Assembly: GCF_029350975.1 (NCBI RefSeq)
Contig: NZ_JARKMR010000001.1
Coordinates: forward strand, 992,001 to 1,056,000
Origin: Maribacter zhoushanensis
GTDB lineage: Bacteria; Bacteroidota; Bacteroidia; Flavobacteriales; Flavobacteriaceae
Direction of reading: 5' to 3'
DNA: 64,000 nucleotides
The translations under genes and the position numbers were made by a program. The notes below the pieces were generated by a model that did not search any database, had not been told where the DNA came from, and was given only the letters and a program-made list of their open reading frames with translations. Each line of letters opens with the position of its first letter. Positions within the stretch are counted from its first letter, which is position 1. Positions 5,565 to 20,497 of this stretch are shown here, one piece after another.

Positions 5565-5594
5565 TTGAATTATAATGAAATATTACTACATTTG
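5565..5594 (+). promoter_or_regulatory. Bacteroidota-type promoter of the ribosomal operon
   Basis: TTG at 5565-5567, a 19-nt spacer and TACATTTG at 5587-5594 match the Bacteroidota sigma factor consensus (TTG, N19, TAnnTTTG). The predicted transcription start, around 5600, leaves a leader of about 35 nt before rpsL. This is the only full consensus promoter I could place for the operon, so it probably drives rpsL through rplQ. Confidence 0.8.
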
Positions 5595-5635
5595 CCGACC
5601 CTTAAAGTAGGGGTAATTTTTATATATTATATAGT

Positions 5636-8658: not shown

Positions 8659-8964
8659 ATGAGTCAGAAAATTAGAATAAAACTAAAATCTTACGATCAC
8701 AATTTGGTGGATAAGTCTGCTGAGAAAATCGTAAAAACGGTAAAGACTACCGGTGCTGTTGTAACAGGGCCAATTCCTTTACCAACACATAAAAAAATAT
8801 TTACAGTTTTGCGTTCACCGCACGTAAATAAGAAGTCTAGAGAGCAGTTCCAATTAAGTTCTTACAAGAGATTGTTGGATATCTATAGCTCTTCATCTAA
8901 AACTATTGATGCACTTATGAAGTTAGAGCTTCCAAGTGGTGTTGAAGTAGAGATTAAGGTGTAA
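8659..8964 (+). CDS. rpsJ: 30S ribosomal protein S10
   Basis: 101 residues, a normal S10 (NusE), which is both a 30S head protein and a partner of NusB in transcription antitermination. It starts [20 protein letters not shown] and carries the [20 protein letters not shown] core. In many bacteria S10 opens the operon that follows with L3, L4, L23 and L2. The same order is kept here, but a 143-nt gap with paired hairpins separates it from rplC. Confidence 0.98.
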
Positions 8965-8970
8965 TTTCTT

Positions 8971-8992
8971 TCTAATCCTTCATAGGGTTAGG
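8971..8992 (+). promoter_or_regulatory. Hairpin in the rpsJ-rplC gap
   Basis: CTAATCC at 8972-8978 pairs with GGGTTAG at 8985-8991 (seven pairs, one of them G-U) around a six-base loop, with an extra U-G closing pair. It begins 7 nt after the rpsJ stop codon and precedes the attenuator-like element. With the G-rich stretch to about 9027 it could be the sensing part of a leader, but that is inference. Confidence 0.5.
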
Positions 8993-9028
8993 TAACATGT
9001 CCTGAGCTGCGTGCGAGGGAAAAACGGA

Positions 9029-9068
9029 AAAATAATTTAGGGTTAAATTATTTTGACCCTATTTTTTT
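9029..9068 (+). promoter_or_regulatory. Attenuator-like element (alternative hairpins) before rplC
   Basis: Two exclusive stems can be drawn. Terminator form: TAGGGTTAAA at 9038-9047 pairs with TTTTGACCCTA at 9052-9061 (ten pairs, one G-U) around a TTAT loop, followed at once by seven T at 9062-9068. Alternative form: 9029-9039 pairs with 9044-9054 in an eleven-pair, A/T-only stem around GGGT. A terminator inside an operon just before L3-L4 suggests transcription attenuation. In E. coli, L4 controls this operon by attenuation in a leader upstream of rpsJ; the position here is different. Confidence 0.65.
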
Positions 9069-9107
9069 GAAATAGAATTTAATAAGTAATAATTAATATA
9101 AATAAGT

Positions 9108-9725
9108 ATGTCTGGGTTAATAGGAAAGAAAGTAGGCATGACCAGTATTTTTGACGAGAATGGAAAAAACATTCCATGTACCGTTATACAGGCTGGACCA
9201 TGTGTAGTTACCCAAGTCAGAACCGAAGAGGTCGACGGGTATAGTGCCCTTCAACTTGGTTTCGATGACAAGGCAGAAAGTCGTGCTATTAAGGCTGAAT
9301 TGGGCCATTTTAAAAAAGCAGGTGCTTCTCCTAAGAAAAAAGTCGTTGAATTCCGAGATTTTGAAGGTGAATTTAAATTAGGTGACACTGTAGGTGTTGA
9401 TGTTTTTGCTGAAGGGCAATTCGTTGATGTTATTGGTACATCTAAAGGTAAAGGTTTTCAAGGTGTTGTAAAACGTCATGGATTCGGTGGAGTTGGTCAA
9501 GCAACTCATGGTCAGCATAACAGACTTAGAGCTCCAGGTTCTATTGGTGCTGCATCATATCCAGCAAGAGTATTTAAGGGTATGAAAATGGCCGGTAGAA
9601 TGGGTACTGATCGTGTAACGGTTCAGAATCTTAGAGTTTTAAAAGTAGTTCCAGAAAAAAATCTTTTAGTAGTAAAAGGTTGTGTTCCGGGCCATAAGAA
9701 TGCTTATGTAACCATACAAAGGTAG
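9108..9725 (+). CDS. rplC: 50S ribosomal protein L3
   Basis: 205 residues, usual length. L3 is an early-assembling 50S protein whose loop reaches the peptidyl-transferase centre. It shows the N-terminal [17 protein letters not shown] and the diagnostic loop [23 protein letters not shown] split over about residues 123-145, with the Gln and His of the methylated loop region. It starts 143 nt after rpsJ, and rplD follows after 4 nt. Its expression probably depends on read-through of the hairpin at 9038-9068. Confidence 0.98.
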
Positions 9726-9729
9726 AGTA

Positions 9730-10362
9730 ATGAAGATAGCAGTTTTAGATATTAAAGGAAAAGACACAGGTAGAAAGGCAAACCTTTCTGATGATGTTTT
9801 CGCTATTGAGCCTAATGATCATGCAGTTTACCTAGATGTAAAGCAGTATTTGGCTCACCAGAGACAGGGTACTCACAAAGCTAAGGAAAGAGCTGAGATC
9901 GCTGGTAGTACAAGAAAAATTAAGAAACAAAAAGGTACAGGTACTGCGAGAGCAGGTAGTATTAAATCACCGGTTTTTAGAGGTGGTGGTAGAATATTTG
10001 GCCCTAGACCAAGAGATTATAGTCAAAAGTTAAATAAAAACTTAAAGCGTTTGGCAAGAAAATCTGCATTGACTTTGAAGTCTAAAGAGAATGCGATTTT
10101 AGTTGTAGAAGACTTTGATTTTGACACTCCAAAAACTAAAGATTTTATTCAAGTTTTAAAGACTTTAGGTCTAGAGAATAAAAAGTCTTTAATAGTGTTG
10201 GGTGATTCAAATAAAGGTGTATATTTGTCTTCGCGTAATTTTAAAGGCTCAGAAGTTATAACTAACTCAGAATTAAGTACTTACAAAATTCTTCATGCTA
10301 ATAGTGTGGTATTGTTAGAAAGCTCTTTAGAAGGAATTGAATCGAATTTAAATAAACAATAA
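9730..10362 (+). CDS. rplD: 50S ribosomal protein L4
   Basis: 210 residues. L4 binds 23S rRNA and sends a loop into the exit tunnel; the loop motif [13 protein letters not shown] and the [13 protein letters not shown] segment are clear. In E. coli, L4 also represses its own operon. That makes it the leading candidate ligand, by analogy only, for the hairpin region upstream of rplC. Gaps of 4 nt on each side point to one transcript with rplC and rplW. Confidence 0.98.
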
Positions 10363-20443: not shown

Positions 20444-20497
20444 GAAAGTGTAGTTACGATTATCGAAGGATAAGCCTTAATTCATAATCTCACTTTC
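20444..20497 (+). promoter_or_regulatory. Three-tier stem-loop before rpsD (candidate S4 leader)
   Basis: Three nested perfect pairings fill the rpsK-rpsD gap: GAAAGTG 20444-20450 with CACTTTC 20491-20497; GATTAT 20458-20463 with ATAATC 20484-20489; AAGG 20466-20469 with CCTT 20475-20478 around an ATAAG loop. Seven bases are unpaired on the 5' side and one on the 3' side between the first two stems. No T-run follows, so it is not a terminator. S4 is the autoregulator of this operon in E. coli, and S4 leaders have been proposed in other phyla, so a feedback site is a fair inference. Confidence 0.6.

Follow-up and report, generated by a model that had tools for sequence, protein, structure and literature searches.

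Between rpsJ and rplC of Maribacter zhoushanensis lies a conserved leader RNA that looks like a feedback switch, seemingly not described before, that belongs to one bacterial family: an attenuator-type leader of ribosomal-protein (r-protein) genes. We put the probability at roughly 0.72 that it acts as such a leader, in which a protein of the operon would bind a short conserved core, block an antiterminator and let a terminator form. In the window (the whole stretch of 64,000 nucleotides that was analysed), rpsL, rpsG, fusA and rpsJ are followed by rplC, rplD and further genes of the S10-spc-alpha series, all on the + strand and all named from a reading of their translations. The rpsJ-rplC gap measures 143 nt, and the elements found in it follow one another in the order given here, between the genes that flank them:

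8659-8964, + strand: rpsJ (S10), upstream of the leader, with its stop codon (8962-8964) included
8971-8992, + strand: P1, a variable hairpin directly 5' of the core, recognised by its fold score against shuffles
8995-9027, + strand: the core, ACAUGUCC-P2-GGAAAAACGG, a candidate ligand site recognised by conservation
9000-9020, + strand: P2, a hairpin within the core, with pairs 9000-9003/9017-9020 and 9006-9007/9013-9014
9029-9054, + strand: the alternative hairpin, a candidate antiterminator of eleven pairs with a loop of 4
9038-9061, + strand: the terminator stem, ten pairs with a loop of 4, recognised by consensus scan, folding and covariation
9062-9068, + strand: the T run (U tract) of seven T
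9108-9725, + strand: rplC (L3), the first gene past the switch
9730-10362, + strand: rplD (L4), a candidate regulator by precedent, its role being inferred

The sequence-only reading of this DNA had described the ten-pair stem with its seven T and the overlapping eleven-pair stem that excludes it, and both are confirmed by coordinates and folding; the two stems share 9038-9054 and are thus mutually exclusive. They turn out to be the 3' half of a longer conserved leader, whose core and P1 hairpin were absent from that reading, the core being the most conserved part of the gap. The claim built on the two stems, that a terminator/antiterminator-like switch stands before rplC at a site unlike that of E. 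coli, is strongly supported by the comparison of relatives described below. Compensatory changes, for which an alignment had been proposed, were found in both stems: they are strong in the terminator, and in the alternative hairpin the outer arms covary and the support for the inner helix is modest.

The segment 9033-9068 folds at -12.2 kcal/mol (z -3.8), with 1 of 200 shuffles equally good. A consensus scan is by itself weak evidence for a terminator, as it returned 16 terminator-like sites in 20 kb versus 11.3 (sd 4.0) in shuffles. The switch stands above chance because it is conserved, the 5' arm of the terminator being used by a hairpin in 102 of 103 leaders and both stems showing covariation. 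In alignment A1, which holds 97 of the 104 leaders (seven odd-shaped ones were omitted), the terminator stem is paired in 98.6% of 873 cells; changes on both sides occur in 84 cells, compared with 20.3 in shuffles, double changes are carried by seven of the nine pairs, the covariation was matched by 0 of 500 shuffles, and RNAalifold agrees. A tree of the single gene rplC (96 tips, that is, 96 of the 97 rows, L022 being left out) gave, in one parsimony reconstruction, 57 double changes versus 11 breaks, and 3' arms could be exchanged among genomes only at a mean cost of 5.0 kcal/mol (79 rows), both counts being taken over related sequences. A strict stem finder had recovered the terminator in 84 and the alternative stem in 71 of the 104 leaders, and an energy-based search was used afterwards.

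The longest T run 3' of the stem has at least six T in 56 of 103 leaders, five in 14, and four or fewer in 33. The stems of this last group are strong (mean -18.3 kcal/mol), and shortness of the run tracks stem strength across the leaders (rho 0.64), a trade-off that may be mere kinship. The run in the window comprises seven T. Termination is plausible. Since 33 of the 103 leaders have runs of four or fewer, termination may be poor there, and it is least certain in relatives that combine stems near -19 kcal/mol with runs of four.

The candidate antiterminator folds at -5.3 kcal/mol (9029-9055; z -5.1), and none of 200 shuffles was equally good. For the comparison across relatives, leaders were cut ahead of the G-C portion of the 3' terminator arm, L085 being excluded (wrong stem picked). 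A hairpin of at least four pairs, joining the terminator 5' arm or loop to the preceding sequence, was found in 102 of these 103 leaders, the exception being L107, with that of L005 differing in shape; the cut leaders have a mean z of -3.4 (100 dinucleotide shuffles each), and in all 103 the alternative fold is weaker than the terminator. It begins 0-7 nt past the core, and at a distance of 1-3 nt in 81 of 101 leaders.

When the 3' arms of the alternative hairpin were swapped between genomes (L005, L085 and L107 excluded), the mean cost was 2.0 kcal/mol and the own arm did better than the mean swap in 91% of 89 rows; with the outer arm alone swapped, the own partner beat the mean of swaps in 80 of the 89. 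For the outer pairs, the anchor was the fold predicted for the sequence in question, which biases the share paired; counting wobble changes, these pairs have 33 double changes versus 6 losses. The inner four pairs are paired in 92.5% of cells and have 11 double-change cells versus 2.4 in shuffles. On two further counts they fare less well: 79 of 500 shuffles were as good for pairs with double changes, and for further pair types, with 448 of 500, they do no better than shuffles; a helix shifted by -1 performs equally on both and has more double-change pairs (3 versus 2), and on the rplC tree the inner helix shows 24 breaks versus 8 double changes.

The core, with the consensus A(C/A)AUGUCC-hairpin-GGAAAAACGG, is present in 104 of 121 rpsJ-rplC gaps according to a pattern search that permitted up to four errors. 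Its AUGUC is altered in just one of the 104 sequences, and changes in the nine letters GAAAAACGG are limited to A to G in two and C to U in four. The P2 hairpin was assessed in alignment A2, which comprises 59 of 103 distinct cores. None of 500 shuffles was as good in covariation score, in share paired or in pair types, double-change cells were equalled by 1 of 500, and the number of pairs with a double change is weaker (53 of 500). Among the substitutions, G14-C24 is replaced by A-U in 10 sequences and C10-G28 by U-A in 3. Judged by this pattern of conservation, the core looks like a ligand site.

The P1 region (8966-8994) has a z of -4.2 in the window and a mean z of -3.1 in relatives (n=89; mononucleotide shuffles, the one shuffle type used). 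P1 is optional, as it is missing in 15 of the 104 leaders, where the core sits at most 20 nt from the rpsJ stop. Inspection by eye revealed no pairing of the core with the arms of the alternative hairpin. A third pairing, between the core and the U tract, was also considered by eye and dropped, as it fails in relatives. A leader peptide starting at the core AUG was rejected as well: the frame comprises 2 codons in 33 of the 104 sequences and 4-38 codons in 70, there is no AUG in one, and the length is not conserved.

At least 118 exact-pattern matches to the core were obtained in named genomes; among those listed, 109 are preceded by rpsJ and followed by rplC, 8 agree with this arrangement on the one side available, and one fits neither. 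This last match (L155, Desulfobacterales) was rejected as a carrier, having neither rpsJ nor rplC nearby, and is probably due to chance, by which about 2 would be expected on a rough estimate. In G123 the two genes are 8.7 kb apart, and the core and the switch stand directly before rplC, the core beginning 112 nt 5' of its ATG. A TAnnTTTG box, presumably of the Bacteroidota promoter type, is present upstream of the core in G123 and in L022, L072 and L109, the last three of which have long gaps; those of G123, L022 and L072 were recognised by reading the sequences, and a strict two-box promoter pattern was matched in L109 and L113 only, the latter without a core. From the placement in G123 and these upstream boxes we conclude that the element belongs to the rplC operon and not to the end of rpsJ. 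L113 itself (G127, genus g127) has a strong hairpin with a T run after rpsJ and a promoter-like TTG-N20-TACTTTTG upstream of rplC; in genus g127 the operon may have been split, with loss of the leader.

A search of 149 genomes of the window's family located rpsJ in 143, and the set of gaps was formed by 120 of the 142 other rpsJ-bearing genomes together with the window (121 in all). The element is present in 105 of these 121 genomes, namely in the 104 gaps and in G123, where it adjoins rplC. Of the 17 gaps without a core, 15 measure 4-93 nt, and 12 of those 15 are in genomes of 1.6-2.3 Mb; larger genomes without the element include G033 (4.8 Mb) and G127 (5.4 Mb). Thus the element is dispensable, as it is absent from 16 of 121 genomes, G033 and G127 among them. 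Three loci lacking the core (L089, L104 and L261) retain a plain hairpin between rpsJ and rplC, followed by a T run in L089 and L261 and by none in L104, and these hairpins are possibly unregulated terminators.

A core model, R1, built from 59 sequences of the same family as the genomes scanned, found a match in 312 of 397 genomes of the family, in 284 of the 330 good ones, and in 193 of 237 genera. Named carriers include Maribacter, Winogradskyella, Polaribacter, Tenacibaculum, Cellulophaga, Arenibacter, Aquimarina, Lutibacter and Robiginitalea. In samples of the order and of the class, which were searched with stricter filters that lose weak matches, R1 matched 11 of 148 and 3 of 247 genomes, respectively, all of them from the window's family; ten genomes of genus g127 in the order sample gave no R1 match. 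Nor was the core seen in the gaps inspected among 28 rpsJ loci from other families of the order: rplC lies beside rpsJ in 25 of these, 2-38 nt away in 20 of the 25, and in L269-L271 it was not recognised there. The suggestion that a switch at this site may be a distinct Bacteroidota solution therefore stands as regards the site, which is distinct from that of E. coli, but not as regards generality, the matches being confined to one family. Two contigs filed elsewhere, L170 (Rhodobacteraceae) and L185 (a Chlorobiota MAG), carry the element beside an rplC or rpsJ that scores high for the window's own gene, and are probably misbinned.

From these results, a mechanism may be proposed. When no ligand is bound, the first hairpin would form while the RNA emerges and hold back the terminator until RNA polymerase has passed. 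As a free r-protein of the operon accumulates (precedent makes L4 the likeliest, with L3 or another possible), it would bind the core and mask the antiterminator's A-rich 5' arm next to it, which would allow the terminator to form. Expression from rplC onward would be lowered, and rpsL-rpsG-fusA-rpsJ would still be transcribed. The order of core, antiterminator and terminator, together with the core abutting the 5' arm of the antiterminator, fits a repressor that favours the terminator when on the core, and we infer the sign of control to be that binding leads to termination; feedback by r-proteins is the usual logic of such leaders. Two features expected of this kind of leader are seen here, namely a conserved structured RNA ahead of r-protein genes and, at the level of sequence and predicted folds, exclusive terminator and antiterminator folds, support for the inner helix of the latter being modest.

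In our judgement, the ligand is possibly L4 and equally possibly L3 or another protein of the operon, and it is unlikely to be something else. The protein sites of such leaders often, though not necessarily, resemble rRNA. We compared the core flanks with rRNA using a linear PSSM: the best paired score in the genome's own 23S rRNA (2829 nt) was 1.0, shuffles having a mean of 1.8, and in the 16S-bearing locus L123 (3386 nt, flanks included) it was 7.9, outside the 16S gene, shuffles having a mean of 4.4 and a maximum of 16.1. As no score in these two sequences exceeded the range of 30 mononucleotide shuffles, rRNA mimicry points to no particular r-protein.

A bolder alternative, itself quite unlikely, is a new class of operon-internal RNA switch with a compact core read by a factor that need not be an r-protein of the operon, such as S10 (NusE) with NusB or a dedicated antiterminator; the core would then decide whether a polymerase that has passed the EF-G and S10 messages continues into the block led by L3. 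A constitutive partial terminator, which would lower the mRNA from rplC onward relative to rpsL-fusA-rpsJ, with the alternative hairpin tuning its efficiency and no ligand involved, is improbable. Such an arrangement would agree with the conservation of the terminator stem and with the plain hairpins retained by some core-less genomes, but it leaves unexplained both the near-invariant core ahead of the switch and the fact that the element follows rplC when the genes separate. More improbable still is an antitermination element, at which S10 and NusB, or a dedicated factor, would act on the core and make the polymerase ignore the terminator, the sensor not being a downstream r-protein. In its favour, E. 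coli S10 acts as a Nus factor, the core comes before the terminator, and the gene immediately upstream is rpsJ in 109 of the 118 matches listed; however, the core has a single match in its own genome (E up to 10) and hence is not shared with an rRNA operon, a boxA-like sequence was not seen by eye, and the element of G123 is 8.7 kb from rpsJ, though action in trans would be compatible with this. Control after transcription, in which the folds would govern rplC translation or mRNA processing and the hairpin, at any rate one with a short T run, would not truly terminate transcription, is highly improbable: it would suit the 33 of 103 leaders with strong stems and at most four T, but the hairpin lies anywhere from 31 to 142 nt ahead of the rplC start (103 leaders, without L085), which is ill-suited to direct masking of the start, and 56 leaders, that of the window among them, have runs of at least six T.

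The attenuator-type r-protein leader that we favour has partial counterparts elsewhere. The E. coli S10 leader sits upstream of rpsJ and is similar in having a leader terminator ahead of the rplC-rplD block; in contrast, the present element comes after rpsJ and accompanies rplC where the two genes are separated, is short, and has a conserved alternative hairpin and a candidate ligand. As described in the excerpted text of PMC10931766, L4 triggers premature termination in E. coli before the block with rplC-rplD, the leader is long, NusA pausing is thought to be involved, and translation is controlled too. In the B. subtilis rplJL leader, according to the same excerpt, binding of L10(L12)4 upstream governs terminator/antiterminator alternatives (PMC10931766). 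The choice between two folds is alike, at the predicted-fold level in our case, whereas the genes are others and the B. subtilis leader has an anti-antiterminator fold; inspection by eye found no core-to-arm pairing here. An L4-Archaeoglobi r-leader candidate before rplC-rplD, with L4 as the most likely ligand and the motif rated '?' in the excerpted survey (PMC7247131), is alike in its place before rplC; it is archaeal, and the likeness is one of description.

In the part of that 2020 survey available to us, S4, S15 and S16 leaders are given for Flavobacteria and an S10 leader of Firmicutes is mentioned, and its table contains no bacterial leader directly before rplC (PMC7247131). The excerpted main text on the Flavobacterium psychrophilum transcriptome names neither rpsJ nor rplC (PMC9723704), and no description of the element was found in the portions of the open-access literature covered, a scope outside which most subscription papers and preprints fall. 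Rfam 15 gave nothing at the gathering threshold in 8900-9200, where three weak matches are far below it. Even within the gammaproteobacteria the E. coli L4 site lacks wide conservation, as stated in the excerpt of PMC10931766, and control of this operon in other bacteria is consequently largely open; for Flavobacteriaceae, the element is a candidate regulator of these genes with defined limits. Its short core could be used to fish for the ligand, the two stems occur in natural variants, and the genomes that have lost the element offer controls. It would be an attenuator located within a fused str-S10 operon, and genome annotation would gain a new RNA family.

Two observations were made outside the gap. 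On the + strand 5' of rpsL (start 5636), promoter-like boxes, TTG at 5565 and TACATTTG at 5587, which we take to be of the Bacteroidota promoter type, are followed by a short hairpin at 5598-5614 lying between them and rpsL; boxes and hairpin (5565-5614) may mark the start of the fused str-S10 transcript. Further downstream, the S4-Flavobacteria leader RF03141, a hairpin assigned to S4 in the excerpted survey (PMC7247131), matches at 20458-20489 (+ strand) with 52.5 bits, the sole Rfam match in the window at the gathering threshold. It is likewise lineage-specific and located in the same gene cluster, is another RNA family with no match in the rpsJ-rplC gap, and would provide the genes from rpsD onwards with a leader of their own.
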